A stretch of 64,000 bases of DNA from Rhizophagus irregularis (taxonomy: Eukaryota > Glomeromycota > Glomeromycetes > Glomerales > Glomeraceae), in contig NC_089447.1 of the NCBI RefSeq assembly GCF_026210795.1, positions 2,482,501 to 2,546,500 on the forward strand, read 5' to 3'. Under the pieces are notes generated by a model. That model worked only from the letters and a program-made list of their open reading frames with translations. It was not told the origin of the DNA and made no database searches. The stretch's first letter is position 1. Each line of letters opens with the position of its first letter. A program made the position numbers and the translations under genes. This document shows positions 20,702-52,675 of the stretch, one piece after another.

Positions 20702-22220
20702 CAGTCAACTCCCTCTATAGTCACTTCCGTTATAGTCACATTCTACTATATAGTCACACCAGTTGAATGTTCAAAACACTTTATTATTAAAATCTATCCT
20801 ATATAGTCACAATCTATCTATAGTCACTATCACACCTATCTTTAAAAATCTTATATTAAAAAGAACCGTTTATAATCACAGTTATATAAAGAATATATTA
20901 AATAACTTGGCATCTAATAATCGTACAAAGATGTATCATAGCTTGTTAGAATCGTCTCACTGAGACGAATCGATGGTGGTAGTTTTATCCTTTTCCTGTG
21001 CAAACAGTCTTACGACTTTATCTTTTATTTATATTTAGAACTTCAAAAATAACATCGAACAATATTACAAAAATAAGAAAATAAACTAATAAAAAATAAA
21101 AAAGAGTAGCTTCACGACTCATACAAGTAAAGAAATCTAAACTAAAATAAATTAAAGCAAAGAAAAACTAAACTATTACAGAATCGCATACCCCAACTTT
21201 ACCCGAAGGCCAGTGTGAGTCAACTATCCAACATCCAAAAATCCAGTCTGTTACCAGAAAGAGATCCTAAGAGGTTGAACTGTTAAGCGGCGCAGAAAAT
21301 CCAGGTGCGAGATCCATGATCCACCCCGAATTATAGAAGAGGATATCCAAGAAATCCAGGAATCCTGAGAAACTGTCGCCAAAGAGGAGTCGTGATGATG
21401 AGGAGAGATAGTATAAGAAGAAGAATTTGTAGAAGGGCCACGTAATTTGGAAGCAGTCGAGATACCCTGCGACTCTTCCCAAGCATGAAAAAGAACATTC
21501 CGGCATAGCCAAATTTCACCATATAATTCGACTTGGAAGTTTTATCCTTTTCCGATCACTGGCTGACGAGTTATTCAACAAAATGTTAAACATCGGCATT
21601 ATAATATTTCTTGATTTACGTTTACTGTGCCATTTAACATTTTGCTAGATTTCTCGGTACCTAGTGATTGTAAAAAGACGATTTATAGCTCGTTAGAATC
21701 GCCTCATCGAGACGAATCGAATGGTGGTAAGCTCATCTCTTTGTAATTAATATTGACGGAGTTATTACTTAAAAACCATTTAATATTTTTTAATTTCGGA
21801 AATTGATCTAGTGATTGGATTTCGATGTATCTTATACCATTAGATTCGTCTCATCAAGACGAATCGAATGGTAGTAAGATCGTCTTTCTAGGATCAATAT
21901 TGGCAGAGTTATTACACAAAAACCATTAATATTTTTTTTTAATTTCAGAAATTAATCTAGTGATTGGATTTCGACGTATTTTATACCATTAGAACCATCT
22001 CATCAAGACGAATCGAATGGCGGTAAGATCATCTCTCTACGATTAATATTGGCGAAGTTACGATACAATAAAGTTTTAAGTATAATTCTGGCTAAAATTA
22101 TGTTAATTTTTGGCCGGAATTATGATATATAAATATAAGAAATTTTTTATATAGTCACATCTCTTCATAATCACCAAATATGGACTGTCCCAAATATGTG
22201 ACTATAAAGAGAGTTGACTG
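20702..22220 (+). mobile_element. Pogo-like non-autonomous DNA transposon, copy 1
   Basis: Ends are CAGTCAACTCCCTCTATAGTCAC and its partner GTGACTATAAAGAGAGTTGACTG, with TA on both flanks, as in pogo/Tigger-type Tc1/mariner elements. The A end carries five TATAGTCAC-like words within about 130 bases, typical of subterminal transposase-binding repeats. The B half has 2.5 tandem copies of an about 145-base unit, each starting with a GACGAATCGAATGG palindromic core. No transposase gene is recognisable. Site A at 20980 is filled by a truncated LINE; site B (22166-22188) is empty and intact. This copy defines the host element used for comparison with the copies at 32011 and 41692. Confidence 0.82.
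20997..21537 (-). mobile_element. 5'-truncated family A LINE nested at site A of copy 1
   Basis: The 541-base insert matches the 3' end of the family A LINEs at 41426 and 43076 in reverse orientation: the 3' tail, the untranslated region with AAGGCCAGTGTGAGTCAACT, and the last codons of ORF2 (the LRIPGFLGYPLL frame is an out-of-frame reading of the QDSWISW block). It is bounded by direct repeats of AGTTTTATCCTTTTCC (20981-20996 and 21539-21554). It is a dead 3' fragment, as commonly left by target-primed reverse transcription. Confidence 0.85.
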
Positions 22221-22222
22221 TA

Positions 22223-23060
22223 TATGAAGATTTACTAAGTTAAAAAACTGAAAAATCTAAAAAAGAAAAACAAAATTAGTAAAAAAAAATAAAAAAAGGT
22301 AACCTAACTATTGTCTTTGAAGCTAGTGGTAAAATTATCCAGATTATCCATTAATGATACAAATAATCCAGATAATCTGTTATTAATATTTTTTAATCTT
22401 CTCATTCATATCCATTTATCATCTATATCTGTTTAAAAAATCCTATCCAGATAATCATAAATGGCAAATATCTGTTCACAAATATAAATTGTGGATAAAT
22501 AGATTGAAACATTATATTTATAGAAATAATTCAAAATTAATTTCTAATTCTATACAGTATTAAAAATTATATTATACTATAACAAATCAAATATTTATCG
22601 CACTTTTCAAAATTGTGCTATTCCCTATAGATCATCTAATAAAAAAATTATTAGATTACAGAATAATTACCAAGCAAAAATTGGACAATGTTGTCCTGTA
22701 ATCATCCACCTGTGTCGTCCTGCAACTGTCCATTAATCACTTAATCATCACAATGTACACAGAATTCTGAAAACTGCGATAATGCAATTTGATTAGTAAA
22801 TATATTAGATTTTTAAAATAAAAAAAATATTTTAATAAAATATAATAAATATTTTTAAAAATTATATAATATTATAATTTATTAATAGATAAACTGAATT
22901 ATGATATATTTTATTTATAATATTTTAATATAATGCATTTTTATTGGTCAATTTATATTATATAAAAAAAAAATTTTACTTTTAGCAAAAATTGAAATTT
23001 GAATTATATAAGAGTTTTTTAAAAAGAAAATTTATTTGCCAATTATTTAATAAAAAAATT
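22223..23060. other. AT-rich gene-free DNA
   Basis: No gene seen. Recurring ATCCAGATAATC words occur at 22335-22460. Otherwise low-complexity A/T sequence. Confidence 0.4.
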
Positions 23061-23815
23061 TTTTTTTTTTAGGGTTGTCAGATAAATACTATAAACTGGA
23101 CTTTAGAATTAAGGTAAATAGAGAAGGGGAAGTATATTTATTTATTTATTTTAAAAGAAATGTTTCTAATATTTCTTTTTTCTTTTTTATAGGTTTTTAG
23201 ATGAATATTACAAATTGAACTCTAGAATTGAAGTAAATAAAAGAGAAAAAGTATATTTATTTAAAAGAAATGTTTCTAATATTTTTTCTTTTCTTTTTTG
23301 TAAATTGCTAGACAAATACTACAAACCAGATTCTAGAATTGAGGTAAATAAAAAAGAGGAGTATATTTATTTATTTTTTTTTAAAAAAAAACATTTCTAA
23401 CATTTTTTCTTTTCTTTTTTATAAGTTATTAAACAAATATTACAAACTGAACTTTAAATTTGAAGTAAATGGAAAGTTCTTTATTATTATTAATAAAAAC
23501 AATTTTAGCGTTTCTTTTCTTTTTTATAGGTTACCAGATTTTTAATAATAAAATGAATCTGGACTTACGTAATAAAATAGAATAGAAGAAATAGGAATTC
23601 TCTTAATATTAAAGAAACATACTAACATTTCTTATTTATTTTATTTAGATTGCCAGACTTTTAGATGAACCTGAATTTGAAATACTTGGAATGTAAACTT
23701 AAGAAAAGGAAAAGAATTTTTTTTTAAATATATTAAAGAAATATACTAACATTTTTTTTATTTATTTTTTAGGTTGCTGAACTTTTAAGCAAATCTAATT
23801 AATAAAAAACTTTTT
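23060..23815 (+). repeat. Tandem array of seven exon-like units
   Basis: Seven units begin at about 23072, 23193, 23305, 23425, 23530, 23649 and 23773, with a period of 105-124 bases. Each has a pyrimidine tract ending in AG or a decayed AG, then about 40 bases; in the first four units GTAAAT follows, like a 3' splice site, micro-exon and 5' splice site. In the first four units the 40-base part translates to variants of one peptide (LSDKYYKLDFRIK, FLDEYYKLNSRIE, LLDKYYKPDSRIE, LLNKYYKLNFKFE). Units 5-7 have stops. It is either a degenerate minisatellite derived from a gene fragment or the remains of a gene built of repeated micro-exons. No flanking start or stop exon is recognised. Confidence 0.6.
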
Positions 23816-25153: not shown

Positions 25154-25155
25154 TA

Positions 25156-32008: not shown

Positions 32009-32209
32009 TACAGTCAACTCTCTTTATAGTCACACATTTGGGACAGTCCATATTTGGTGATTATAAAGAGATGTGACTATATAAAAAATTTCTTATATTA
32101 GTATATCATAATTCCGGCCAAAAATTAACATAATTTTAGCCAAAATTATACTCAAAACTTTATTGTATCGTAACTCCGCCAATATTAATCGTAGAGAGAT
32201 GATCTTACC

Positions 32210-34880
32210 TAGGGATGGTAAATTACTGTAATTTATGAAATTTATTGTTACGTTACGGTAATTTTCTATAAGTTACATTACACTATTTTATTGTAACATT
32301 CAATTTGATATAAATTAAAGATGATCAAAGATAATCAATTTTTAAAAAAATGCCAAAACAAAGATATTCTTTCTGGTCAGAGTTTGAAGAAATAATAGAT
32401 TCCAATGGAAAAAAACGATATAAATGCATATATTGTAATTCTGATTGGGCAAAAAATGCGACAAGATTACAAGAACATCTTAATACTTGTCTTGCAAGGA
32501 AAATTACAATGGAATCCATCATATCTGAATCTGAACCTGCTGTAAACCAAACTAATAAACGTAAACAAACTACTTTAAATCACTATATGCCTTTTTTTAC
32601 AAAACAAGATCAGGAAGAATTAGAATCATGATTAGTTCGTGCATTTTGCAGTACTGGTCTACTGGAATTCCTTTTAATGTAATAGAAAATGTTGATTTTC
32701 AAGCATTTTTACAAAAAGCATGTCTTTCATTTCACATTCTGTCACGTCACACATTATCTGGTAATTTACTAAATAAAGAATATAAAGATTTGAAAAAATT
32801 AGTCTGAAATGTTTTTAATGAAACACCATATTTTTGCATAACTAGTGATGGATGGTCAAACATAAATAAAGCTCCAATAGTTAATTACATAATAACTACT
32901 CCAAAACCTATTTTTTATAAATCGGTATATACAAAAGAAGAGCATCATACTGGGGAAAATATAGCCAAAGGTATAGAAGAATGTATGATATCAATTGGAA
33001 TTGACAAATTTACGGCTGTAATAACTGATAATGCTAATAATATGAAATCAGCATGGAGAATACTTAAAGAAAAGTATGCTGATAAGATTTTTCTTGGATG
33101 TTGGGCACATGAAATTAATTTGTGGGTAAAAGATATAATGAAACACAAATGGGCTAATGATATCTTAGAAAAAGCGAAACGATTGGCTTTATATTTTCGT
33201 AATCACCAAATTCCATTAGCTACACTTTGGAGAATACAAAAAGAAAAGTATGGATATGAAGTTGCTTTAACATTAACTGTTGAAACAAGATGGATGTCAG
33301 TGTTTGAGTGTTTAGATCATATTTTGAAAACAAAAATTGCAATGAGAGCATTGTTGGCGGAAGAAAATATTATTTTAAATCAAGAAATTAAAAATTACAT
33401 TATTGATGATTGTTTTTGGGAAGAACTTAAAAATCTTCGTGATTTTTTGGAACTGTTTATAAATTTTATACGAAAATTAAAAGAAGACGAACCTTATCTT
33501 TCATCAGCTTTTGTTACATTACGAGATATTGAAAATAACATCTTATTAAATAATAAAATTCCAAATGATTTAGTTGAATATTCAATAGATAGAGCTAAAT
33601 ATCGGTGGGACAACTTTTTATATAATCCTGCGGTTATTGTTGCATATAGATTAGATCCTAGATTTAATGGAGAACTAGTAAATAGTGGTAATTGGCATGA
33701 TATTATAGAAGAAGAAATTATACGTATTGCCAGAAAAGAGAATGAAGTTCGGGTATTAATTGAATTAAGTGAATATATAGGAAGACGCGGAGGATTTGCT
33801 AAAAAACATTTGTGGAGTGGATTAAATCAAATGCCAATTAATTGGTAGAATTTATTAAAGTCAAGATACCCACTACTTAGTTCGGTTGCAATTAAAGTTT
33901 TATCAATTCCGGCTTCTTCAGCAGCAAGTAAAAGAAATTGGTCTACATATAATTTTATTCATTCCAAATTGCGAAATAGAATGGTTATTGATCGAGCAGA
34001 AAAATTAGTATATATATATTGGAATATTAGAATTCTTCGAGAATTGGATGTGCCACTTACGGTCAAAGAATTAATTAAAAGTAGCGTAAAAATGAGTGAT
34101 TTAGAATCAGATGACGAAAAGTTAGGTGAAGAATCAGATAAAGAACTGGAAGGTGACATTGATAGCAATTTCAAAACTTTAACAGAATATGAAGAAAATG
34201 AGTTTGATTTAGATTTAGATGATTGATATGTATTTCTTACGATTTAAAAATAAATGATTATGCAATCAGCGGTTCGTTGCCATTTCTATAAATTTAAAGA
34301 AAAATGTTAGTACTGTTTTATAGTACTGTTTTATTAAGTAAATGCTGACATTCCCCCATACTCACTCATTTTGCCTTTTAAACAGTTTCCCAAAGCTCTG
34401 TTTTCCTACAAAATAGAAGAAGAACATTACTAATGGTTCATTAAGTAAATGCTGACGTTCTTCCTCATACTCACCCATTTCGTCTTTTAATTAGTTTTCT
34501 AAAACTCCGTTTTCAACAAAATTTAAAAAATATTAGAACTGTTTCAGTTCTTTAAGTAAATTCTAGTGTTCCTTCTTGATCTTACAAATAGTTTCTCTAT
34601 TCCGATCCCATTAAAAAAAAAAATAAAGAATTAAAAAAATTTTATTAATCGGTCATACCAAAAAAATAATTATGTAATTAAACTGCGCCCAATATTTTTT
34701 TTATGCAAATCTTTCATATAAATTATATAACTCGGCCAAAATTAGTTTTTAACTAAGTAATGCTGGTCGAATCAGCTTAATTCTGGTAAACATATAAATG
34801 TAATGTTACATCAAGCCTATGTAACTTACAATGTAAGTTACGTAACGTAATGTAACGTAATGTAACACTTAGCATCCCTA
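32210..34880 (+). mobile_element. hAT transposon with 8-bp target duplication
   Basis: Ends TAGGGATG and CATCCCTA, with further subterminal TGTAACGTAA-type repeats. Exact 8-base duplications ATCTTACC lie at 32202-32209 and 34881-34888. The length (2671 bases), ends and a BED-finger transposase gene identify the hAT superfamily. It inserted into the third subrepeat of pogo-like copy 2. The 3' untranslated part (about 34315-34570) contains 2.5 tandem copies of an about 115-base unit with GTAAATGCTGACNTTC. Confidence 0.9.
32350..34226 (+). pseudogene. hAT transposase, interrupted
   Basis: The N-terminal BED zinc finger reads YKCIYCNSDW then LQEHLNTCLA (C-X2-C, H-X4-C). Later blocks are TSDGWSNINKAPIVNYI (first catalytic Asp region), VITDNANNMKSAW (second Asp), LGCWAHEINLWVKD (the C..H block), a helical insertion, and the C-terminal hAT dimerisation block SIPASSAASKRNWSTYNFIHS. 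The acidic tail ends at 34226. In-frame stops occur at 32629 (TGA), 32805 (TGA) and 33846 (TAG). The frame shifts by 8 bases at about 32652-32665, where TACTGGTC is followed by a second TACTGG. The element is therefore not autonomous as it stands. The remaining frame is long (287 residues uninterrupted), so it decayed fairly recently. Confidence 0.88.
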
Positions 34881-35711: not shown

Positions 35712-35771
35712 TTATTCTGTCTCTTTCCCTTTTCCCCTTTTCTTTATTACCCGTTTTATCAGTGTGTAATA

Positions 35772-38700
35772 ATGATGGACAACAAAAAACATAATTTTTC
35801 CCCCCACTTCTCTCCTCTTCTTAGATTTGGTCAAATTAATGTAAATAGTCTTGTTTCCCCAGTACGTCAACAACATCTTCTTAATTTTTTTCTTCACTCT
35901 TCCTTTGGTGCATTATCATTGAATGATACTCGTCTTTCTCCTGCTAATGCTAAATTTATTTTTAAAAATGAACATATTAAACATCACTTTCGGTCCTATT
36001 GGGCCTGTTCATCTTCTTCTCGTCCTCATGATGGCGTTGATATTTTACTTCGCAACCCTCTGCATAAACATGTTCAAACAATTGACTCTTGGAATGGTCG
36101 CCTTCTTAAATTAGATTTATTTTTTCATCAAACAAAAATTTCTATTATTTCTTTATATTACCCCCTTCTGGTTCTATTCACCAATCTATTTGTAATGATC
36201 TTATTGCCAAATTGCTTTCCTGGCTTGATCATGCACGTTCTAATAACTACTTTGTGGTCCTTCTTGGCGATTTCAATATTGATGAAGTTGCTCATTCCAA
36301 CTATTCACACAATCATTTCAGACTTCTCCGTTTACTTTCTTCTTGATTTTTTACCGACCATTATGCTTATTCCTCTTCTTTGGATGGTCCTAGTCCTACC
36401 TTTTTTCATGCCAATGGTTCCTCTCAATTGGACTATATTTGGTCCTCGCCTGGTTTTCCTGCTCCTGGCCTTTTCTCATAAGTGACTACTTGCCCCTATC
36501 TCCTTGATCGCCCCTTTACTGATCATAAAGTTCTTATCACTGTTTTTGACTTTAGTACTTGCTTAGCTATATTAGCCAAATCCCGTCTTAAACAAAAAAA
36601 AGAAATGCGTACCGTTTTTTCTTATACTTCTACTTCCGAAGAACAATGGATGAAATTTGCCACTGAAGTGGATGATTCTCTTGGCGTGTACCTAAATAAA
36701 CAATATACTACTTGTTCTGATTTTTCTTCCCTATCTTTAGATCGTATGTGGTATGCCTTAAAAGCCGCCATATTTAGCGCTGCAATTGAAACACTATCCT
36801 TTCATAAGGTTTCCAACACACATCGTTCCACATACTCCCCAGAATTGTCTAAACTTATTGCCATTAACAAGTTTTTAGATAGATTTTTATATCGTTTTAC
36901 TACTCGTCATCCTAATCGGCCTACCCAGATCTTACAAATGACTGCAGAATTACCATCTCATCTTGTTAATCTCACATCCTTACTTCCTGATTATTCAATT
37001 CCTACTTATTCTACAACTCCTTTGTCTGGATTTAAATCCTTTTTACGCTCACAAAAGAATTTAGTTTCTGCTTTTTTGGGTACTAAGTTCGCTCAGAATC
37101 TTTCAGACTCTGTAGAATACTACACAGCTCTACGTGATGAACATTTTTCAGACTCGCTTGGCACTTTTATTGATTCTGCCTTATCAGTTGAAAAATGTTC
37201 AATTGTTCTTGATCGCGTCCTGGTTGTCTTGGACTTCATCCCCACTCTTCTAACGGACCCTTCGGATATCAAACAAGCTGCTGTTGCTCATTTTCAATCA
37301 GTTGTCTCTCCTCCTTTGGTCCAATATCATTCTATTGCTTCCTTCCCTCCACGTTGGCAACAAGCTTACACTCCTCTTCCTGATGTGTCAGCTTCATTAT
37401 ATGATCCTGTTTTAACACCAATCACTCTACAAGAATGGTCTGATGTCATCTCTTCTATGCCTAACAACAAAGCTTCTAGCCCTTCGAAGATCTCCTATGA
37501 GATGATAAAACATTTGTCTGGTGAAGCCTTGGATTTTTCTCTTTTACTTGCCAATACCTGCCTTTCTCGCGGTGATATTCCTGCTGACTGGCGTGAAGCT
37601 GTGGTCTATCCTATTCCTAAACCTCATGATTTTGATGCTCAGCTCAAGAACACTCGACCTATTACTCTTCTGGAAACTGTTCAGAAATGTGTGGTTAAAG
37701 TCGTCACCAATCGACTCTCTGCTATCCTTGCTGACAATAAAATTCTTCAAGGAGGAAATTTTGCTGGTTTACCCGGTGGCTCCACGGATGTTCCTATCAA
37801 AATGCTTGATGCGATTATTCATCAACAAAAACATGACTCTACTGATGATCAGGAATTATGGATCATTTCTCAAGATATCTCTAAAGCTTTTGATTCTATG
37901 GATTTAAACATGCTCAGATTAGCTTTAGATAGATTACACATACCTGCACTTTTAGTTCAATTTATTTTGAATCTTTTTACACGACGTAATAATAAGATAA
38001 TTACTTGCCATGGCGATACAGCTGCTTATCGAGTACGTGTTGGTATCGATCAAGGAGAAATCATTTCCCCTCTTCTTTGGGTTATTTATTTGGATCCTTT
38101 ACTTACTGTTTTAAACCAAGAAACACGAGATCCTTTTGTTCTGAAATCTTCTGCTCTTTTAGATTATTCTTCATTAGCATTTGAACAACAATTTTTACCA
38201 ATTTCTCATTTGACTTTTATGGATGACTCTACCCTTATTGCCTCTTCGAAATCTGGAATTGAAAATCGCTTTCTATTACTGCTGAATTTTATACTTTAAA
38301 TAATGTTCAAGCCAATTCAGCCAAATATGTTCTTTTTTCATCCTCTTCCCCCTCTTCGAAGATTATTTTTGATCTTTCACCTTCTCCTCTAGTTTCCATT
38401 CCTTCCCTTTCCCTTTTTTCCTTACCTGTTAATACTTCGTTTCGTTTTTTAGGAGTTTGGTTTTCTTTGTCCGCCTCTTCTGATTTTGTTCTCAGACAAG
38501 CGCGCTCTATGGTCAAAGATATGGCAGCTCTTCTTAGTTCTAAGAAATTATTAGCACAACATGTGGCCTATCTCTATAATGCTGTCCTTCTTCCGAGATT
38601 GGAATTTTGTCTCCAAACTACTCTTTTCTCTGAAAGTACTATTCAGTCGATAGTCAAGCCTATGTTTTCAGCACTTAGAAGAAAAGCTGGCCTTGCAGCT

Positions 38701-41174
38701 ACTACTCCACTAGCTTTGCTTTTCTTGAAACTTTCTTTCTCTATTCAAAATGCCTTTTATCGTTTTCTCTCTTCTCACGTGGCTTCTTGGCAAAAAATCT
38801 TCACTCACCCAGATTTTAAAAATTTTGCCGCCTATGCTATTTCTTATCTTCAAGGCTTTCTGGGCGCTGAAAGTTGCCCAACTACCATTAACCTAGAACC
38901 GTGGTCTCAAGTTGTTTCCTTGCGGACACATACTTTGTTTAATTCTCTTTTGTTCACTTCAAGATTAAATATCACGTGGTCTCTTTCTTTTTGACCTCCG
39001 AGGCGTGATCTACAACCTGCTCTGCCACTCCGATCTATTCTACCACATTCCATTTTTCAAACAAGTTGGAAACTTTGGAAACACTTGCATATTTTTGTGC
39101 TTGCCCAAATAGCTTCTCCTTGTGGACATTATCTTATAAATTGGTCTGATCTTCATTACCTTGGTATCGTTGGCCGTAAAGGACGGATCCCCACTTGGTT
39201 TAATTTTATTAAAAACAATTTTCTTTCTTTTTCTTTTTCTTCATTACTTTTATTTTCGTATTTTATTAATACTTATTTTACATTAGCTTCACCTTGTTTA
39301 TTAGATAATACTGTTAAAGATTATCATTTTTATCCCCAATGGGCTATTAATTTTAATTCCACTACCCAAACTTTATCTGTTGGCCGTGCGTGTATCACTT
39401 ACAAGAAACAAGACTCCGCTATCATGTCACATTGGCTTCCTGTATCTACTTCTGCCAATGAACGATCTTACAATCCTTGCCCTGGTTGTTCTTACAATGT
39501 ACCCGCTTTGTCAAAGAAATTCGCGATTAAACAGCGCTGTAATAGCGAGAAATGCTTCTTCAATGTTTCCTTATCTGAAACCGTTGGTTACCCCACGAAG
39601 CATGCCAAAGTTTTTGCAGCTTATCTTCCTATAACTTTGTCTACGTCCTGGAGTTATGCTACTTCCTTAGCCCTTACATATCTTGAGAGTTTATCGTTTA
39701 CTCCTTCTTCTAATGATAATTTTTCTTCCACATCGACGAATGATGCGAATGATAATACCTTTGTTCCATCCTTGCCTCCTTCAGTACAGAATTTGTACAC
39801 TGATCATTCCTTCCGCCACGCATCTGAATCTACTCCTCCTTCTATGTCACCCGCCTGGTTAGCCCTTGATGATGATGGATTTATATTGGATTCTTTCTCT
39901 ATAAGCCTCCCTTCGTGTTCACCCTCAGCTCTACGTTCTGAAATTTATGCTGTGGTACTAGGACTTTATGCTCTTCCTTTTGGCTCTTCCATTACAATTA
40001 ATACCGACTGTAGTCAACTTATTTCTCTTTGGACAAGTTTTGTCAATGTTCCATTTTCGCCAAAACTGTTTCGTCAAATTAATCATCTTCTTTGGCTTTC
40101 TATCCGACATATTGTTAAGAATCTTGATTTGAAAGTTAAATTGAACAAAATCCCTGCTCACAAGAATAACGCACATAACATACAAGTTGATTCTCTGGCT
40201 AAAAACGCTCACTCATTTATGCAACCTACCTTTTCACCAATGGCTATTTATCAAGCTCCGTGTTTGCTTAAGTTCAATTCCTTACCTATTGACATGAATA
40301 TTCGTCACTTTCTCCGTTCTATCGCAGATGCTCGTGCCCTTTTATCCTTTTGTTCCATGACACGCTTTACTGCACTTGGCTCTTCTGCACTCTTCGATTG
40401 GGCTGGTATACATTTTTGCCTTTCACAAATTAAAGGTTTTGCTTCTCATAAGAATGGTCGTCCTGAATTTTGGATCTTCTGTATAAAACTTCTCTTGGAT
40501 ATGTTGCCTACCTTGACTACTTTACAACAACAGAAATTCCATTTATATTCTCCGGACTGGCTTTGTCCACAATGCAATTCCTTTCCTGAAAATTTGAACC
40601 ATCTCTGGACTTGTCCTTATATCCTTCCAGAACTTAATCCCTGTTTAACACATCGTTCTGAAGTTATTACATTTAGGGACGCTTGTATTAAATCATTTTC
40701 GTCCTTAAAATCTTTGGACCTTTCTTTCCCTGATGAATTTTTGCTTTGGACTGCTGGGATTTTGAAACTCCTTTTTCGTCCTGCCTTTGGCTTACTCGAA
40801 GCTTACTTCCTGCCCATTTAACTTTGTTTTTGAAACAATATTTTCCTCTTTCAGTCATTTATAAAATTATTTCTCCGCTTCTTAATGACTTCCAAGTTAA
40901 ATTATATGGTGAAATCTGGCTTTGTCAGAATGTTCTTTTCCACGCTTGGGAGGAATCACAGGGTATTACTGCTACTTCAAAATTACGTGGCCCTTCTACA
41001 ACTACCGCCTCTACTATTTCTCCTTATCATCATAACTCTTCTCTGGCGACAGTTTCTCAGGATTCCTGGATTTCCTGGATATCCTCTTCTATAATTCGGG
41101 GTGGATCTTAGATCTCGCACTTGGATTTTCTGCGCTGCTTAACAGTTCAACCTCTTAGGATTTCTTTCTGGTAA
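35772..41174 (+). pseudogene. LINE family A ORF2 (EN-RT-RNase H), interrupted, copy 1
   Basis: Domains in order: APE-type endonuclease (FGQINVNS to LGDFNIDEVAHS, 35820-36480), reverse transcriptase (SQDISKAFDSMDLNM at about 37866, GIDQGEIISPLLW at about 38043, FMDDSTLIASS at about 38217), RNase H (LYTDHSF at about 39795, KIPAHKNN at about 40147) and a C-terminal finger (WLCPQCNS, then LNHLWTCPYI, at about 40558-40625). Damage: frameshift near 36155, TGA near 36344, TAA near 36479, frameshift near 38268, TGA at 38992, frameshift near 40743 and TAG at 41109. The RNase H motif reads Asp-His-Ser instead of Asp-Gly-Ser. Not functional. Confidence 0.85.
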
Positions 41175-41987
41175 CGGTTTGAATTTTTGGATGTTGGATA
41201 GTTGACTCACACTGGCCTTCGGGTAAAGTTGGGGTATGCGATTCTGTAATAGTTTAGTTTTTCTTTGCTTTAATGTTATTTTAGTTTAGATTCTTTACTT
41301 GTATGAGTCGTGAAGCTACTCTTTTTATTTTTTATTAGTTTATTTTCTTATTTTGTAATATTGTTCGACTATTATTTTCGAAGTTTAAATATAAATAAAA
41401 GATAAAGTCAAAATACTGTTTGCACGGCAAAAGGATAAAACTACCACCATTTGATTCATCTCAGTGAGACGATTCTAACAAGCTATGATACATCTTTGTA
41501 CAATTATTAGATACCAAGTTATTTAATATATTCTTTATATAACTGTGATTATAAACGGTTCTTTTTAATATAAGATTTTTGAGGATAGGTGTGATAGTGA
41601 CTATAGATAGATTGTGACTATATAGGATAGTTTTCAATAATAAAGTGTTTTGAACATTCAACTGGTGTGACTATATAGTAGAATGTGACTACAGTCAACT
41701 CCCTCTATAGTCGCTCCCGTTATAGTCACATTCTACTATATAGTCACACCGGTTGAATGTTCAAAACACTTTATTATTAAAATCTATCCTATATAGTCAC
41801 AATCTATCTATAGTCACTATCACACCTATCCTCAAAAATCTTATATTAAAAAGAACCGTTTATAATCGCAGTTATATAAAGAATATATTAAATAACTTGG
41901 CATCTAATAATCGTACAAAGATGTATCATAGCTTGTTAGAATCGTCTCACTGAGACGAATCGAATGGTGGTAGTTTTATCCTTTTCC

Positions 41988-42970
41988 TTTGCTAGTGTTT
42001 ACGGCCAGACCACCCATTACCTCTTATGAGACTAATCTCGGGTCTGTGTCCTATCATCTTCACTGGGCAACTATTATACCGAGTACTTAATTCCTCAGGT
42101 AACAGCACCACTTTGAAGACATGCCCCCATCGCCGTTTTAAGCTGATGCGGTTTGTACGCGCCGCCTACTCATCCTATATCCATTGCGTGATACTGATAC
42201 TTTCAATTTATTTTACGACCTTTAGAGAGCATCTACTTTCATGGAGGACTTTCGACAGGTAACATCAACCATCTAGTACCCTTCCATACCACCATTTTAG
42301 GTACTAAGTCTCCATCAAAGGCCACTAATGCCTGTGATTACCTGCGTGATAGTACAGTTGTTTCTGCCCCAGAAAGTGTATTTGTTTTAGTGACCACTCG
42401 GACCAGGAAGTAGCAGGCATTTGTCCAGGATCACCCCTTATGGTGGGTATCAACCACCGCATCACCAACCAGGACCTGGGCGAGAGAATCCGAACCCTAT
42501 AACCACGCTACCTGTTCTGCGCACGAACACTTTGGTTGGCCTAAAACCTAACAGAAGGTCTAACTATCACTAAGACATTGCACCCTCAGCTTTACCATCT
42601 AGGACGACCATCTAGCCATTACTGACCACAAGTGGTATCGTGGAGTGACCACCCGGACAGGAAGTCCTCCTCAAGGTATAGTAGTGACCTTAAGGACAGG
42701 GGAACTGCTTGCTTGCGTGCCAATGGCCTCATAGGGAACGTTAGAAGGACACCATGACCCTTAGTTGAAATGTGCGGCCTAACTGTACACACTAATTCAC
42801 CATGATGCAGTCTAACTACACTAATCCCTGTACCTTCACGCTATTGGTTGTAGCGTCCGCAGTAAAATTCTTTTTATTTCCGTGGTCATGGGAATCGAAC
42901 CTGCGACCTCACCATACTCAGGCTTAATGAGGGTCTCAGTGACTAACCATTGAGATAGGGTGACCAACCC
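41988..42970 (-). mobile_element. tRNA-headed SINE A at site A
   Basis: A 983-base insert flanked by TAGTTTTATCCTTTTCC (41971-41987 and 42971-42987). On the minus strand it starts with a tRNA-like head (42968-42887) that has an A-box-like CTCAATGGTTAGT and a B box GGTTCGATTCC. A second tRNA-like module starts near 42591 (TGCAATGTCTTAGTGATAG), with a decayed B box near 42485. The 3' part (42470-41988) matches SINE C at 50923. No protein frame. RNA polymerase III transcription from the head is inferred from the boxes. Its 3' end GCAAAGG plus the target word is the same as in the LINEs. Confidence 0.7.
42887..42968 (-). ncRNA. tRNA-like head of SINE A
   Basis: The minus strand reads GGTCACCC at the 5' side and CATGACCA at the 3' side, giving a partial acceptor stem (GGTCA/TGACC). 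CTCAATGGTTAG fits a D-arm/A box, and GGTTCGATTCC is a perfect T-loop/B box. The anticodon arm is not convincing, and the sequence sits at the 5' end of a retroelement, so it is called a SINE promoter and not a working tRNA gene. Confidence 0.6.
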
Positions 42971-42987
42971 TAGTTTTATCCTTTTCC

Positions 42988-43058
42988 TTTGCTAGTGTTT
43001 ACAGCCAGACCACCCATTGCCTCTTATGAGACTAATTTCGGGTCTGTGTCCTATCATC
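42988..43058 (-). mobile_element. 5'-truncated SINE B fragment
   Basis: 71 bases matching the 3' end of SINE A and SINE C (TTTGCTAGTGTTTACAGCC onward). It is bounded by site A words at 42971-42987 and 43059-43075. A dead end product of incomplete reverse transcription. Confidence 0.8.
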
Positions 43059-43330
43059 TAGTTTTATCTTTTTCCTGTGCAAACAGTCTTGTGACTTTAT
43101 CTTTTATTTATATTTTAAACTTCGAAGACATGATCGAACAATATTACAAAAAATAAGAAAATAAACTAATAAAAAATAAAAAGAGTAGCTTCACGACTCA
43201 TACAAGTAAAGAAATCTAAACTAAAATAAAATTAAAGCAAAGAAAAACTAAACTATTACAGAATCGCATACCCCAACTTTACCCGAAGGCCAGTGTGAGT
43301 CAACTATCTAACATCCAAAAATCCAGTCCG

Positions 43331-46300
43331 TTACCAGAAAGAAATCCTAAGAGGTTGAACTGTTAAGTGGCACAGAAAATCCAAGTGCGAGATCCATGAT
43401 CCACCCCAGATTATAGAAGAGGATATCCAAGAAATCCAGGAATCCTGAGAAACTGACGCCAAAGAAGAGTTGTTTTTTTGTGAAGAAGTAGCAATAGAAG
43501 GAGAAGTTGTAGATGAGCCACGTAATTTAGAAGCAGCCAAGATACCCTGTGACTCTTCCCAAAGCATGGAAAAGAACATTCCGCCAGCACATCTGCAAAA
43601 GTGCGACTTGGAAGTCGTTCAAGAAGAGGAGAAATAGTGTTTGTATATAACGAGAGAGAGAAGTGTTGATTCAAAAATGCCGTTAAATGCGCAGGTAACA
43701 ATCCTCTAGTAAGCCAAAGACAGGACGGAGAAGGAGTTTCATAGTTCCAACAATCTAAAGTAGAGAAACCAGTTTGGAAGGTAATATCCAAAGGCTTCAG
43801 AAATAAGAACGAAGATAAACAAGAATCTCTGAATTTAACAATTTCAGACTGATGTGTTAAATATGGATTAAGATCTGGGAGAATATAAGGACAAGTCCAA
43901 AGATGATTCAAATCTTCAGGAGCTGAGTTGCATTGTGGACAAAGCCAGTAAGGAAAATATAAATAAGGCTTGCGTTGTTGAAGAGTAGTTAAGGTAGGCA
44001 ACATATCCAAAAGGAGTTTGATACAGAAGATCCAAAATTCAGGATGACCATTTTTATGCGAAGCAAAACCTTTAATTTGTGAAAGGCAGAAATATATACC
44101 AGCCCAATCAAAAAGTGAAGGAGAACCAAGAGCAGTAAAACGTGCCATGGAACAGAAAGATAAAAGAGCACGAGCATCGGCTATAGAGCGGAGAAAATGA
44201 CGAATATTCATGTCAATAGGCAAAGTGTTAAAAGTCAACAAACATGGAGCATTACAAAATGCCGAAGGGAAAACAGTAGGTTGTAAAGACGAATGAGCAT
44301 CTTTTGCCAGAGAATCCGCTTGTATATTGTGGATATCATCGCCATAAGCAAGGACTTTAATCAAATCGACTTTAAGATTACGATCTATGATAAGTTGTCG
44401 AATAGAAAGCCAAAAAAGATGATTAGGTTCTCGAAGCAACTTCGGTGAGAAGGGAGCATTAACAAAACGTGTCCATAAGGAAACTAATTGACTACAATCA
44501 GTATAAACAGAGATTGAAGAGTCATGGGAGAGGGCGCTTAATCCCGATAAAATAGCAAAAATTTCAGAATGCAAAGCCGAAGGAAAACAAGAAGGGAGAT
44601 GCACAGATGAAGATTCAAGGATAAAACCATCATCATCAAGAGCAATCCAAGCAGAAGTCATGGAAGAGAGTGAAGATTCTTTGGCAGGATGGAAAGAACC
44701 ATCGGTATATAAAGTTTGCACAAAAGACGGCAGAACATCAACTTCAATTCTGTCTTGAAAGGAAGGAGAAAGGGTGGGAGAAACGGATAAGAGGGGCGAG
44801 TTTGTCAAATGAACAAAAGCTAAAAAAGTAACATAACTCCATGAAGTAGATAGAGTTATGGGAAGGTAAGCCGCAAATACTTTGGCATTTCTGGTAGGAT
44901 AGCCCACAGTTTCCGATAGGATTACATTGAAAAAGCATTTTTCGCTATTGCATTGTTGTTTAATGGCAGATTTTCTGGATAATGCTGGAATATTAAGGGC
45001 ACAACCAGGACAAGGGTTATAGGTTCGTTCATCAGCCGAGGTAGATACAGGAAGCCAATGAGACATAATAGCTGAGTTTTGTTTCTTGTAGGTGATACAC
45101 ACACGGCCAACAGATAAAGTTTGAGTAGCAGAATCAAGATTAATAGCCCATTGAGGATAAAAATGATAATCTTTAACAGTATGATCTAATAAACAAGGAG
45201 AAGCTAAAGTAAAAGAAGAATTAATAAAATACAAAGACAAAAGTAAAGAAGAAGAAGAAGAGGAAAGAAAATTATTTTTTATAAAATTAAACCAAGCAGG
45301 AATGCGTCCTTTACGACCAATGATACCAAGGTACCGAAGGTCAGGCCAATTCATGAGATACTGTCCACAAGGAGAAACCAATTGAGCGAGCATAAATATA
45401 TTCAAATTTTTCCAAAGTTTCCAACTCGACTGAAAAATAGAATGTGGTAGAATGGATCGGAGCGGCATAGCCGGTTGTAGATCACGCCTCAGAGGTCGGA
45501 AAGATAGAGACCACGTGATAGTAAGTCGTGAAGAAAACAAAAGAGTGTTAAACAAAGTATGTGTCTATAAGTAGACAACTTGTGACCACAGTTCTAAGTT
45601 AATAGTAGTCGGGCAACTCTCCGCGCCCAAAAAGTCTTGAAGATATGAAATGGCATAGTTGGCAAACAATCGAAAATCTGGATGAGTGAAAATCTTTTGC
45701 CAAGAAGCCATATGAAAAGAAAGAAATCAGTAAAAAGCATTCTGAATAGAGAAAGGAAGTTTCAAGAAGAGCAAAGCTAATGGAGTAGTAGCGGCAAGAC
45801 CAGCTTTTCTTCTAAGAACTGAAAACATAGGTGTAACAATTGATTGAACAGTGTTTTCTGAAAAGAGAGCGGTTTGAAGACGAAATTCCAATCTCGGAAG
45901 GAGAACAGCATTGTACAGATAGGCTACATGTTGCGCCAATAATTTTTTCGGACCAAGAAGAGCAGCCATATCTTTAACCATAGAACGCGCTTGTTTAAGC
46001 ACAAATTGAGGAGAAGCAGATAAAGAAAACCAAACTCCTAAAAAACGGAATGAAGTATTCAAAAATAAAGAGGAAAGGGAAAGAGACAAATTGGAAACTA
46101 AAGAAGAAGGTGAAAGATCAAAAACTATCTTCGAAGAAGGGGAAAAGGAGGAAAGAAAAACATATTTAGCCGAATTAGCTTGAACATTATTCAAAGTATA
46201 AAATTCAGCAGTAATAGAAAGACGATCTTCAATGCCGGGCTTCGAAGAAGCAATAAGTGTAGAATCGTCCATAAATGTCAAATGTGAAATAGGTAAGGAA

Positions 46301-48717
46301 TGTTGTTCAAAATCAAGTGGAGAATATTCTAAGAGAGCTGAAGATTTCAAGACGAAAGGATCTTGTGCTTCTTGATTTAAAACAGTAAGTAAAGGGTCCA
46401 AATAAATAACCCAAAGTAAGGGGAAAATAATTTCTCCTTGATCGATACAAACACGGACTCTATAAGCAGCTGTATCGCCATAACAAGTTATAATTTTGTT
46501 ATTACGTCGTGTAAAAAGATTTAAAATAAATTGCACTAAAAGTGCAAGAATATGTAATCTAACTAAAGTTAATTTAAGCATATTCAGATCCATAGAATCA
46601 AAAGCTTTAGAGATATCTTGAGAAACGATCCATAATTCATGATCATCAGAAGAGTCATGTTTTTGTTGATAAATAATTGCATCAAGCATTTTGATAGGGA
46701 CATCAGTAGAACCACTAGGTAAACCCGCAAAGTTACCTCCTTGAAGAATTTTATTATCAGCAAGGATGTTGGAGAGACGATTCGTGACGACCTTAACAAC
46801 ACATTTTCGAACTATATCCAGAAGGGTAATAGGTCGAGTGTTCTTGAGTTGAGCATCAAAGTCATGGGGCTTGGGAATAGGATAAATCACGGCTTCACGC
46901 CAATCAGCAGGAATATCGCCGCGAGAAAGGCAAGTGTTGGCAAGTAAAAGAGAAAATCCTAAGGCATCACCGGACAAATGTTTGATCATCTCATAAGAAA
47001 TTTTTGAAGGGCCGGAAGCTTTGTTATTTGGCATGGAGGAAATAACACTAGACCATTCTTGTAAGGAAATAGGTGCTAAAACAGGATCATATAATAAAAC
47101 AGACACATCCGCAAGAGGAGTGTAGGCTTGTTGCCATCGAGCAGGAAATGAAGCAATAGAAGAATAATGGACCAACGGAGGAGAAACAATTGACTGGAAA
47201 TGAGCAATAGCAGCTTGTTTAATATCCAAAGGATCCGTTAAAAATGTAGGAGTAGAGTCCAGGACAACCAGGACGCGGTCAAGAACAATCAAACATTTTT
47301 CAACCGATAGAGCAGAGTCTATGAAGGTGCCAAGCGAGTTCGAAAAATGTTCGTCACGTAATGCTGTATAGAATTCCACAGAGTCCGTAAGATGTTGGGC
47401 GAATTTAGTAGATAAGAAGGCAGAAACTAAATTCTTTTGTGATCGTAAAAACGATTTAAAAACAGATATAGGAGTTGTGGAATAGGTAGGGATTAAATAA
47501 TCAGGAAGCAAGGATGTAAGATTCTCAAGATGGGAAGGTAAAGCAGCAGTCATTTGCGCAATTTGAGTAGGCCGATTGGAACGACAAGTGGTAAGGCGAT
47601 ATAAAAATCGATCTAAAAACTTGTTAATAGCAATAAGTTTAGTTAATTCAAGAGAGTATGAATATCGGTGTGTGTTGGAGACTTTTTGAAAAGGTAATGT
47701 TTCAATTGCAGCACTAAGTATGGCAGCTTTTAAAGCATGCCACATACGATCAAGAGAAAGAAAAGAGAAATCAAGACGAGAATTATATTGTCTATCTAAA
47801 TATACTCCAAGAGAATCATCCACTTCAGTGGTAAAATTATTCCATTGTTCATCCGAAGTGGAAGTATAAGAAAAGATAGTACGCATTTCTTTTTTTTGTT
47901 TGAGACGAGACTTAGCCAAAATAGCCAAGCAAGAACTAAAGTCAAAAACAGTTATAAGAACTTTGTGATCAGTAAAAGGACGATCAAGTAGATTAGGGCA
48001 AGTAACCACTTGCGTAAAAAGACCAGGGGCAGGAAAACCAGGTGAAGACCAGATATAATCCAGTCTAGAAGATCCATTATCATGGAAAAAAGTGGGATCA
48101 AGACCATCGGTAGAGGAGTGAGCTTGATGATCAGTAAAAAACTGAAAAGAGAGTAAACGAAGAAGCGTGAAGTGAGTGGATGAATAGTTGGAATGAGCGA
48201 CTTCATCAATATTGAAGTCGCCAAGGATGATTACAAAATAGTTATTAGCACGGGCATGATCAAGCCAAGAAAGAAGTTTGGCAATAAGATCAGCACCTAT
48301 AGACTGATGAATAGAGCCAGAAGGGGGATAATATATAGAGATAATAAAAATTTTCGTTTGATGAAAAAATAGATCCAATTTAAGAAGACGACCATTCCAA
48401 GGATCAATTGTTTGAACATGTTTATGAAGGGGATTACGTAATAAAATACCAACACCATCATGAGGACGAGAAGAAGACGAACAGGCCCAATAGGACCTAA
48501 AGTGATGTTGGAAATGTTCATTTTTGAAAATAAATTTAGCATTTGAAGGGGAAAGGCGGGTATCATTAATAGACAAAGCACCAAAAGAAGAATGAAGAAA
48601 AAAATTAAGCAAATGTTGTTGTCTAACTGGGGAACATAAGCCATTAACATTAATTTGACCAAATTTAATAAAGGGAGAAGGGTGAGGAGAAAAATTATGT
48701 TTTGTATTGTCCATCAT
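43331..48717 (-). pseudogene. LINE family A ORF2 (EN-RT-RNase H), nearly intact, copy 2
   Basis: One frame from 48717 (MMDNTKHNFSP) covers APE-type endonuclease (FGQINVNGLCS, then ILGDFNIDEVAHS near 48215), reverse transcriptase (SQDISKAFDSMDLNM near 46600, FMDDSTLIASS near 46265), RNase H (LYTDGSF near 44710, with later Glu, Asp and His blocks) and the C-terminal finger WLCPQCNS (near 43930). A TGA at 45727-45729 replaces an Arg codon kept in copy 1, and a TAG lies near 45568. A single-base frameshift near 43590 moves the last 80 residues (EESQGILAAS to RISFW) into another frame ending at 43331. Full length would be about 1795 codons. The family B copy carries the same domains. Confidence 0.88.
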
Positions 48718-48771
48718 TACTACACTATGATAAAAGGTAAGTAGTAGAGGGAAATAATTGGTAGTTAAAAA

Positions 48772-50775
48772 TTATTGGGAGTTCGCGTTATCGCGAGCAG
48801 CCAAGAATTGTTTTTGTTGAGCCATGCCTTGTTGTACTGTTTTAGTGAGTTCAGTGACTGTAGCAGTAAGGGAGGAAAGGCGATCTTGTGGTGATGTGGC
48901 AGGGCCAGGGATCAAATTCATACGGGGAGGAAGGAGAATATGTGAATGAGCAGTGAAATTAGGATCATTCGATGGTGAAACAGGAGAACTAAAATCCATG
49001 AGGTTGTCACTAAGACGTCGAGGATCAGAGGGTTCAATATTATCCCATCCTTGGTTCATAGATTTAATTTCGGGGGCAGGAGGAGCTTGAGGTTGTTGGG
49101 ACCTTGGAATAGGAGGGGAAGAATAGTGGTCTTCTAGCCATTTAACCCGATTTTGAAGTTGGGCAAATTCTGTGGTGAGGTGAGTAATTTCTTCGAGTAT
49201 GATAGTGATTTGTTCGGTGATATGTTGCCAATCCATTAAGGGTGGGATATTCATTGCAACTGTGTCATAGTCCAATTCAGATTGAGAAGGACGATGAGGA
49301 CGATGACGATGATTATTATGTTGAGAGCGCGAATGGGAAGATCTAGGGCGGGAATGGGATCGGGAGGGAGCTTTTCTTCCAGCAGCGTCAGCATAAGATC
49401 GTTGCCAGGAATTATCAGGACGCGCAAAACGATTATGACGTTTAGCGGGATGAGAAGAAGGTAAGTGTTTATTATATAATTCACGCAATTTATCATTGCT
49501 AGACCACGGACGAGAGGGACATTGAAGAGCACGTGACGAAGCGCATCTATCCGGAGTACATCCGGGATGACCACAACAATGGCAAAGAGAGGAGACTTCG
49601 GTAGGTTCATGCCAAGTAAGGCCAATAGATTTGAGAGCACAAGTAATCCCCATAGCCGATTCTTTAGTAGCAGCAGAGGAAAAGTGTACATACGCATAAG
49701 GTTTAGGATTGTAAGAATTGTAGGAGAAAGGGATGTTGACGCTTTTAGCAGAAACTTCTTTGGCAATTTCAGAAAGGTCGGCGGCAACAGAACCTCGAGG
49801 AAGGCCGGCAAGAAGTGCAACGTGGGCGCGTCTGATAGCGCGTTGATCAGATGAATGAGAAGCAGGGCAGACGCGTAAACAATGTCCAGTACAAAGAACA
49901 GCCCACGTGTTTTCAAATTGTTCCATGGCAGCGGTGGAGTCAAAAACTATATACGCAGTGCGATAAAGTTTCGAAAGACGCGTACGGCAGTGGGTAACAA
50001 TACCATAACAGGAGAATGTACCCCTTAATTGTGCATCGGTGACAAAGAGAGGGATGTCGGTAACTACCAGGATACGAAGCTGTTCATCTACCTTTTTAGC
50101 AGATGGGTCATGTTTGTGAAACTGTAGATCATGCAGGGAGGAGATAGGCGCAGCGATAGCTTTTTCCATATCGGGTTTGGAACGAAAGAAGGCAACGATA
50201 ATTTTATTATCGCCTGATCCTTGAGTGGTAGCTTTACTACCATAAGAGGAAAAGGAGGAGAATTCTCTGTCAGTCACGTCGCAAGCTTCGCGATTGGTTT
50301 TGAAGTGGGTCCAAAATCCTTTGATAGTAGAGGGCGCAGCCGCAGCATAAAAGCGAAGAAGGGAAGATTGTATAGCGGCGGCAGACGCGTCGGGAGACGC
50401 AGCGCGTTCAGGGTCAGGAGATAAAATTTCTACAGATTTTCCTTTATCTGCAGAGTTAGAAGGGGAGTGTTGGGAATCATCAAGGGAAGAACCAGAGTCG
50501 GGGGCCAAAAGGGACGCGTTGGTGTCAACGGGAGGAGAAGGCGAAGTTGAAGTATTTTCCTGAGGAGCAGGAGGAGTCAAAATATTGTCTTGGTCCATAA
50601 CGGGTTCAGAAGAAACCCGTGTGCATTTTGCAGAGTTGTCGGTCAAAGGTTGCGAAGTAGGACCTGGGATAGAAGCAGAAGAACCTTGACCTTGAACGTT
50701 GCCAGAAGGAGGACTCTGGGCAGGACGTTTTGGAGCAGAAGAACCGGAAGCTTTATTATTTCGTCTGTTAGTCAT
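48772..50775 (-). CDS. LINE family A ORF1 protein (RNA-binding, zinc knuckle), intact
   Basis: 667 residues with no interruption. The N terminus (about 1-150) is Ser/Pro-rich and disordered. An RRM-like fold is suggested at about 230-300 (LRILVVTDIPLFVTDAQLRG then GIVTHCRTRLSK). A second nucleic-acid-binding-like stretch follows at about 315-380. A compact cysteine-histidine motif CHCCGHPGCTPDRC lies near 400. Basic Arg/Ser/His repeats (SRSHSRPRSSHSRSQHNNHRH) follow at about 470-500, then a coiled coil (about 520-550) and a C-terminal helix. LINE ORF1 proteins coat the element RNA and escort it to the target. The start is 5' of all similarity and has no upstream alternative. Confidence 0.85.
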   Translation of the reverse strand: MTNRRNNKASGSSAPKRPAQSPPSGNVQGQGSSASIPGPTSQPLTDNSAKCTRVSSEPVMDQDNILTPPAPQENTSTSPSPPVDTNASLLAPDSGSSLDDSQHSPSNSADKGKSVEILSPDPERAASPDASAAAIQSSLLRFYAAAAPSTIKGFWTHFKTNREACDVTDREFSSFSSYGSKATTQGSGDNKIIVAFFRSKPDMEKAIAAPISSLHDLQFHKHDPSAKKVDEQLRILVVTDIPLFVTDAQLRGTFSCYGIVTHCRTRLSKLYRTAYIVFDSTAAMEQFENTWAVLCTGHCLRVCPASHSSDQRAIRRAHVALLAGLPRGSVAADLSEIAKEVSAKSVNIPFSYNSYNPKPYAYVHFSSAATKESAMGITCALKSIGLTWHEPTEVSSLCHCCGHPGCTPDRCASSRALQCPSRPWSSNDKLRELYNKHLPSSHPAKRHNRFARPDNSWQRSYADAAGRKAPSRSHSRPRSSHSRSQHNNHRHRPHRPSQSELDYDTVAMNIPPLMDWQHITEQITIILEEITHLTTEFAQLQNRVKWLEDHYSSPPIPRSQQPQAPPAPEIKSMNQGWDNIEPSDPRRLSDNLMDFSSPVSPSNDPNFTAHSHILLPPRMNLIPGPATSPQDRLSSLTATVTELTKTVQQGMAQQKQFLAARDNANSQ

Positions 50776-50922
50776 AGCTAAAAGTAGAAGGGAGAACTCA
50801 AATATGTAATAGTTAGAAGTAACGCGAAGTAAATAATAAAAATACTTCGAAAAAATCTTTTTTATTTTTTGTCGCTATATTGTCGTGAAGGCAACAGGAG
50901 AGAGTTAGTTTTATCCTTTTCC

Positions 50923-51525
50923 TTTGCTAGTGTTTACGGCCAGACCACCCATTGCCTCTTATGAAACTAATCTCGGGTCTGTGTCCTATCATCTTCAATG
51001 GGCAACTATTATACCGAGTACTTAATTCCTCAGGTAGCAGCACCACTATAGAAGACATCTTCCATCGGGCCATTATAGGCTGATCTGAAGCTAGGTACAC
51101 ACCGCCTACTCATCCTATACCCATTGCATGATACTGATACTCAATTTATTTAACGACCTTTAGAGAGCATCTACTTTCATGGAGGACTTTCGACAGGTAA
51201 CATCAACCATCTAGTACCCTTCCATACCACCATTTTAGGTACTAAGTCTCACTCAAAGGCCACTACAGCCCGCGATTACCTAGCACCAATAGTACAGTTG
51301 TTTACCCCAAGTGGTATACTTTGTAGTGATCACTCAGACAGGAAGTAGCAGGCTTCTGTCCAGGATCACCCCTTATGGTGGGTATCAACCACCAGGGATC
51401 ACCAACCAGGCCACCCAAGAAGTGGGGAATCGAACCCCATAACCATGCTACCTGTTCTGTGCACGAACACCTTGGTTGGTCTAAGACCTAACAGAAGGTC
51501 AAACTACCACTAAGACATTGCACCC
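50923..51525 (-). mobile_element. tRNA-headed SINE C at site A
   Basis: A 603-base insert between site A words at 50906-50922 and 51526-51542. The minus strand starts GGGTGCAATGTCTTAGTGGTAG (A-box-like), with GGGTTCGATTCCCCAC (B box) at about 51440-51425. The body matches the 3' two thirds of SINE A with about 10-15 percent differences by eye. It lacks the outer tRNA-like head of SINE A, so SINE A may be a compound or longer form. Confidence 0.72.
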
Positions 51526-51542
51526 TAGTTTTATCCTTTTCC

Positions 51543-52032
51543 TTTGCAAACAGTCTTATGACTTTTATCTTTTATTCATATTTAAAATTTCGAAAACGTA
51601 ATCGAACAATATTACAAAAATAAGAAAATAAACTAATAAAAAATAAAAAGAGTAGCTTCACGACTCATACAAGTAAAGAAATCTAAACTAAAATAAAATT
51701 AGAGCAAAGAAAAACTAAACTATTACAGAATCGTATACCCCAACTTTACCCGAAGCCGCTGAGTGAATAACTATCCAACATCCAAAAAATCCAGTCCGTT
51801 ACCAGAAAGAAATCCTAAGAGGTTGAACTGTTAAGCGGCACAGAAAATCCAAGTGCGAGATCCATGATCCACCCCGAATTATAGAAGAAGATATCCAAGA
51901 AATCCAGGAATCCTGAGAAACTGTTGCCAAAGAAGAGTTGTGTTTATGTGAAAAAGTAGCAAAAGAGGAGAAATTTGTAGACGGGCCACATAATTTGGAA
52001 GCAGCCGAGATACCCTGCGACTCTTCCCAAGC
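51543..52032 (-). mobile_element. 5'-truncated LINE family A copy 3
   Basis: 490 bases matching the 3' end of family A copy 2: the tail, the untranslated region, and the last 70 or so codons of ORF2 (AWEESQGISAASKL to VQPLRISFW, in frame down to 51799). It is bounded by TAGTTTTATCCTTTTCC (51526-51542) and AAGTTTTATCCTTTTCC (52033-52049). Confidence 0.85.
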
Positions 52033-52675
52033 AAGTTTTATCCTTTTCCGATCACTGGCTGACGAGTTATTCAACAAAATGTTAAACATCGGCATTATAA
52101 TATTTCTTGATTTACGTTTACTGCGCCATTTAACATTTTGCTAAATTTCTCAGTACCTAGTGATTGTAAAAAGACGATTTATAGATCGTTGGCATCGCCT
52201 TATCGAGACAAATCGAATGGTGGTAAGCTCATCTCTCTGTGATCAATATTGACGGAGTTATTACTTAAAAACCATTTAATATTTTTTAATTTCGGAAATT
52301 GATCTAGTGATTGGATTTCGATGTATCTTATACCATTAGATTCGTCTCATCAAGACGAATTGAATGGTAGTAAGATCGTCTTTCTAGGATCAATATTGGC
52401 AGAGTTATTACACAAAAACCATTAATATTTTTTTAATTTCGGAATTTAATCTAGTAATTGGGTTTCGACGTATTTTATACCATTAGAACCGCCTCATCAA
52501 GACGAATCAAATGGCAGTAAGATCATCTCTCTACGATTAATATTGGCGAAATTACGATACAATAAAGTTTTAAGTATAATTCTGGCTAAAATTATGTTAA
52601 TTTTTGGCCAGAATTATGATATACAAATATAAGAAATTTTTTTATATAGTCACATCTCTTTATAATCACCAAATA

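Follow-up and report, generated by a model that had tools for sequence, protein, structure and literature searches.

We analyzed a 64,000-bp stretch of the Rhizophagus irregularis genome (C19:2482501-2546500, numbered here as positions 1-64,000, hereafter the window) and searched the genome (146.75 Mb, 32 contigs) for the elements found in it. The window contains three copies of a high-copy, 965-bp, non-autonomous pogo-like DNA transposon (hereafter the host), and the sequence makes it very probable that a guild of non-long-terminal-repeat (non-LTR) retroelements has this transposon as its dedicated target and enters it through site-specific target-primed reverse transcription. The guild comprises two long interspersed nuclear element (LINE) families, LINE A and LINE B, and several groups of short interspersed nuclear elements (SINEs), a term used here loosely for short non-autonomous elements. 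Target-primed reverse transcription leaves a constant 3' end, a fixed duplication, and a variable 5' end. The initial annotation of the window had put forward this process for LINE A at one word of the host, site A, and the flush 3' ends, duplications, variable 5' truncations, and empty sites described below support that reading.

The three host copies annotated in the window proved to be real (Table 1), and in each of them site A (AGTTTTATCCTTTTCC) is filled, always in one direction with respect to the host. The inserts are a 540-base LINE A fragment, a 6.06-kb LINE A copy, and a string of LINEs and SINEs. The site-A word, or a variant of it with one mismatch, is located at positions 20980, 21537, 35355 (minus strand), 41427 (minus strand), 41971, 42971, 43059, 50906, 51526, and 52033. 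When up to three mismatches are allowed, the 17-base form of the word has 12 matches in the window compared to an expectation of 0.82, a number that none of 100 shuffled sequences reached. Ten of these matches are junction sites, while the other two (1962 and 27991) carry three mismatches and lie off the junctions. The string in the third host (41988-52032) consists of a SINE, a SINE fragment, a LINE A copy, a SINE2, and a LINE A fragment, with the site-A word at every boundary. The inserts at site A differ from each other, as had been annotated; they have many different 5' ends and belong to three families, LINE A and two SINE families.

The 17-base word has 360 exact matches in the genome, and its reversed form, used as a control, has none. 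To take a census of filled and empty sites, we relied on the 100 host left ends that were listed (all exact, on C1-C15), out of 510 counted with up to three mismatches. Forty-two of the 100 were already present among the listed empty sites; the remaining 58 loci were fetched and yielded 42 filled hosts and 16 further empty ones, the latter with altered words or altered junction bases. With 42 filled and 58 empty sites, the notion that site A is occupied in every host copy holds for the window but not for the genome. The first insert in the filled hosts was LINE A in 12 cases, SINE in 18, and SINE2 in 12; all 42 share one orientation and begin with the element's 3' end, which starts with base 1 of the reference in 41 cases and with base 4 at locus L031. 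After joining the two flanks of filled host copy 3, we found the resulting 317-base sequence end to end (317/317 bases, 97-99% identity) at 40 natural loci, these being the ones scored among 1106 candidates. Pattern searches with up to three mismatches gave 510 matches for the host left flank plus word, 230 for the empty 35-mer, and 435 for the host right flank plus word; the patterns are unequal in length and strictness, and their differences are rough filled counts only. About 30 listed exact words were not otherwise explained, and each of the 20 that we fetched lay inside a host or where a host borders an element end, an empty site being among them. Variants of the word, e.g., TTTTAC or TTTTAT, are tolerated at site A.

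All of the 80 retroelement 3' ends that we sampled (40 LINE, 20 tail-A SINE, 20 tail-B SINE) adjoin host site A or one of two further host words, sites B and C; some of these words carry one or two changed bases. The LINE sample consisted of the first 40 among 100 listed 3' ends (321 counted) and contained 20 ends at site A, one at a degenerate site A (L076), and 19 at site B. The initial annotation had stated that finding most LINE A copies at unrelated sequences would count against it; this sample shows the reverse. For tail-A SINEs, we took the first 22 exact matches minus two inside the window (100 listed, 273 counted); 15 of these 20 ends lie at site A and five at site C. The tail-B SINE sample, i.e., the first 22 of 72 counted matches minus the previously fetched L119 and L120, mapped entirely to site B (20/20), as did L119 and L120 themselves. 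On the far flank of the site word, the first 60 sampled ends have the host in 31 cases, another retroelement in 28, and no match in one; the corresponding numbers for the 20 tail-B SINE ends are 11, 7, and 2.

At the right host flank, the 5' end of the insert is followed by the site word and then by host sequence. The lengths of the last inserts at this position are about 95, 120, 124, 219, 247, 266, 292, 317, 319, 490, 517, 540, and 627 bases, or full length; two of these values come from the window, and L012 and L114 also carry further rearrangements. Three full-length LINE A loci (about 7.85 kb) possess the word at both ends, the right copy at L158 being slightly rearranged. The presence of the site word on both flanks of the insert agrees with the initial annotation. 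Since the base preceding AGTTTT can be A, G, C, or T, the duplication is 16 bp (AGTTTTATCCTTTTCC), compared to 14 bp at L110. Variable extra TAGTTTT-like repeats are found beside the duplicated site at full-length LINE A 5' ends (L157, L158, L159; 35355-35400 in the window) and arise perhaps from slippage when the second strand is joined.

Site B (ATAATCACCAAATAT) adjoins the right terminal repeat of the host, and LINE B is inserted there in the orientation opposite to that of LINE A at site A. With up to three mismatches, there are 378 matches to the empty site B and 81 to the junction between host site B and the LINE B end, although some of the latter with two or three mismatches have another element instead of the host on their left. 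The four LINE B 5' ends seen at host-B junctions (the window copy, L007, L112, and L113) are all different. In the window, LINE B forms a tandem array (52677-64000) of a truncated copy, a full-length-like copy, and a third copy cut by the window end, with the site-B word between each. Site C is found on the opposite host strand and is represented by 435 empty copies (up to three mismatches); its duplication is about 16 bp, as judged from one copy read at both ends (L009, and L083 for the other side). None of the 40 sampled LINE 3' ends lies at site C. Around the inferred nick, sites A and C have the core TC(C/T)TTTT(C/A)C^(G/A)ATCACT(G/A)G in common. Apart from site A itself, the closest match to this core within the host is site C (14/19), a score reached by five of 500 shuffled sequences, and by eye both sites follow an imperfect inverted repeat. 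Site B is without this core. The host also holds further weak matches (12/19) to the site-A core.

The first open reading frame (ORF1) of LINE A encodes an RRM and a CHCC-type knuckle, and ORF2 encodes an APE endonuclease, a reverse transcriptase (RT), and an RNase H. Profile matches to PF03372 (2.2e-08) and PF00078 (1.8e-12) are both over the cut-off for LINE A; for LINE B, PF03372 scored 25.5 bits (cut-off 24.5) and PF00078 8.9e-17. The RNase H match is just under the cut-off of 25.8 bits in LINE A (25.6 bits) and over it in LINE B (28 bits). In a PDB search, LINE A ORF2 matched chains of L1 ORF2 and of R2, plus a single chain with no name beyond RNA-directed DNA polymerase. Identity between LINE A and LINE B is 69.8% across 845 ORF2 residues, compared to 46.5% for the C-terminal part of this frame and 39-47% for ORF1; the two are sister families with different sites in one host. 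With APE and RT domains, a defined 3' junction, a duplication, and variable 5' truncation, both have the predicted properties of site-specific APE-type non-LTR elements.

The 983-bp SINE and the 603-bp SINE2 have a common 3' region. An exact B box (GGTTCGATTCC) is present in both heads, and A-box matches are found only with one mismatch. ARAGORN at default settings detected no tRNA in the SINE heads, and loosened runs produced hundreds of meaningless matches; in Rfam, SINE had no match and SINE2 one far below the cut-off. The two tail-B SINE copies compared have the head and body of the 983-bp SINE and a different tail. Tail and site corresponded in all 40 sampled SINE ends, with tail A at site A or C and tail B at site B.

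Many known SINEs have a tail shared with a LINE, as set out in a passage of PMC3747384. The SINE tails studied here match some LINE A copies over only about seven terminal bases, and LINE B over fewer, so that homology does not identify their partner; it is the shared sites from which we infer that the LINE A and LINE B enzymes serve the SINEs. These few common bases, together with the use of site C, where none of the sampled LINE ends lies, would fit a third, unseen LINE serving the SINEs in place of LINE A and LINE B. We consider this rather unlikely, since at site A the SINEs occupy the very word used by LINE A, point the same way, and are interspersed with it in tandem; the same holds for LINE B at site B.

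The alternative named in the initial annotation is that one nested unit was amplified. Such a unit of host plus insert would have been multiplied by the host transposase or by segmental duplication, with the same junctions copied each time. The host is a high-copy element of mobile type with TA-bounded terminal repeats, and a filled copy could in principle move; yet many hosts are empty, and the one site holds three insert families with many 5' ends. In addition, the host parts of three full-length LINE A loci are 97.2% identical compared to 90.7% for their inserts (insert below host in 3/3 pairs), and those of four SINE loci are 96.3% identical compared to 91.0% (6/6 pairs). The lineages of the full-length inserts are older than the split of the host copies and therefore represent separate insertions. 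We reject amplification for the compared full-length copies and regard it as a highly improbable explanation of the system at large. Even less probable is a broad preference for AT-rich DNA, with most copies elsewhere and the host merely carrying some of them. The site words are AT-rich and their variants are tolerated, but the sampled 3' ends all lie at three host words, and the reversed word is absent where the true one occurs 360 times; we therefore reject such a preference, unless diverged copies differ in this respect. A few observations weigh against site-specific insertion into the host. The contrast between host and insert is weak for six loci with truncated SINE2 (97.5% compared to 96.1%, insert below host in 10/15 pairs), and the truncations at L004 and L020, whose 3' variants differ, fall within 2 bases of each other; both findings would suit an amplified unit. 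The sampled 3' ends are exact or near-exact matches, and diverged copies could lie elsewhere. The short stretch common to SINE and LINE tails belongs among these points as well.

Under site-specific target-primed reverse transcription, LINE A would nick the host plus strand after AGTTTTATCCTTTTCC and before RATCACT, as deduced from the junctions. The host strand ending in TTTTCC would then serve as the primer on which the LINE A RNA is reverse-transcribed, and a second nick 16 bp upstream, likewise placed from the junctions, would generate the 16-bp duplication. The order of the nicks and the recognition of the site by the endonuclease are part of this proposal. Reverse transcription would often stop early and thereby yield 5'-truncated copies. 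Since each insertion leaves two copies of the site, further elements could insert beside the first, and arrays would grow. At site B, close to the right terminal repeat, LINE B would do likewise on the opposite strand. The SINEs, with their putative tRNA-like promoter boxes, would be inserted by the same machinery, tail A directing them to site A and the A-like site C, and tail B to site B.

Intact empty hosts are 964-965 bp long (eight copies with both ends found, among the 16 fetched), and empty copies have a mean pairwise identity of 98.3%. The terminal inverted repeats (TACAGTCAACTC) are flanked by TA. The left repeat is present in all 16 fetched empty loci and both repeats in eight of them (up to four mismatches); in the other eight, the right repeat was not found within the fetched stretch. 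We call the host pogo-like because two of 15 fetched DDE_1 loci (L162 and L171) sit between repeats with the same tip as the host (TACAGTCAACTCT); these loci are not full relatives of the host, and no exact autonomous partner was found among the 15. Host copy 1 contains subunit repeats with inverted repeats inside the host. The left terminal repeat of host copy 2 is interrupted at a TA by host copy 3, the two copies lying head to head (41685-41695), and the transposon thus appears to have inserted into itself. Host copy 2 also harbors a hAT-like element (32202-34888) with a DUF659 protein, terminal inverted repeats TAGGGATG/CATCCCTA, and an 8-bp duplication (ATCTTACC).

Table 1. Host transposon copies, target sites, and inserted retroelements in the window.
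Feature	Position	Strand	
Host copy 1, both terminal repeats, interrupted at site A	20700..22222	+	
Site A (AGTTTTATCCTTTTCC), copy at insert 3' end, host copy 1	20981..20996	+	
LINE A 540-base 3' fragment, 5'-truncated	20997..21536	-	
Site A, duplicated copy at insert 5' end, host copy 1	21538..21553	+	
Site C of host copy 1, empty; SINEs at this word elsewhere	21670..21685	-	
Site B of host copy 1, empty	22167..22181	+	
Host copy 2, reversed; with hAT-like element and LINE A at site A; left end broken by host copy 3	32009..41691	-	
LINE A copy, 6.06 kb; without roughly 1.8 kb of the 5' half compared to full-length copies	35372..41426	+	
Host copy 3; array at site A, LINE B at site B	41690..52676	+	
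SINE of 983 bp, its 3' end directly at site A; exact B box in the family head	41988..42970	-	
SINE 3' fragment, 5'-truncated, flanked by two site-A words	42988..43058	-	
LINE A of about 7.83 kb, with RRM and CHCC-type knuckle in ORF1 and APE endonuclease, RT, and RNase H (slightly below cut-off) in ORF2	43076..50905	-	
SINE2 of 603 bp, its 3' end directly at site A; exact B box in the head	50923..51525	-	
LINE A 490-base 3' fragment, 5'-truncated	51543..52032	-	
Site B (ATAATCACCAAATAT) in host copy 3	52662..52676	+	
LINE B, 5'-truncated, at site B	52677..55853	+	
LINE B second copy, full-length-like, tandem, reading frame interrupted; site-B words at 55854-55868 and 63860-63874	55869..63859	+	
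LINE B third copy, start only, cut by window end	63875..64000	+	

To our knowledge, most dedicated LINE targets are host genes or telomeres. A DNA transposon in this role, which the initial annotation regarded as unusual, has a precedent: in Xenopus laevis, the APE-type LINE Tx1L reportedly has a specific site inside the DNA transposon Tx1D. Because of it, we view our finding as a variant of a known arrangement, a LINE with a dedicated site in a DNA transposon. The Rhizophagus system is unlike Tx1L/Tx1D in having a fungal LINE with an RNase H domain, a 16-bp duplication, at least three sites per host, a pair of sister LINEs that use opposite strands, and SINEs whose tails match their sites; we know of no site-matched SINEs for Tx1. 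What stands out beside this reported precedent is the number of partners, sites, and matched SINE tails. Compared by features, the R1 clade (R1, SART, TRAS) resembles the elements described here in combining an APE endonuclease with a fixed target, but these elements target rDNA or telomeric repeats. R2 relies on a restriction-like endonuclease and targets 28S rDNA, whereas the non-autonomous elements found here bear putative tRNA-like promoter boxes and are not internally deleted forms of the LINE. R2 does have non-autonomous derivatives, according to a passage of PMC3414825, and resembles our system in that such elements are tied to the fixed site of an autonomous LINE. Tx1 is listed among LINEs with target-specific insertion in a section of PMC3747384, and a passage of PMC4640811 identifies the APE-type groups with target specificity as the R1 and Tx1 clades. 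The curated R. irregularis transposable element library includes SINE and several LINE groups, among them L1-Tx1, L1-R1, and I; the main text of that report nowhere uses "target site", "insertion site", or "nested" (PMC11075540). Among the titles listed in literature searches, most were off-topic and none reported the present system.

The target described here is a mobile, expendable element that two or more LINEs and several SINE groups use at three sites, and one genomic parasite thus provides the landing pad for several others in a root-symbiotic fungus. On balance, we lean toward the idea that the 3' tail of the SINEs works as an address label that can be exchanged: sister LINE machineries would recognize the differing tails of SINEs that are similar in head and body and would deliver these SINEs to separate fixed sites, so that a swap of tails may move a SINE to another site within the same DNA transposon, and the guild would depend on the copy number of the transposon in a stable chain of parasite upon parasite. 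Sister LINEs with different targets and similar SINE bodies with different tails are natural matched pairs that offer a test of how DNA target and RNA template are chosen. With hundreds of host copies, filled and empty, and with other isolates, the history of insertion into this transposon may be read directly.

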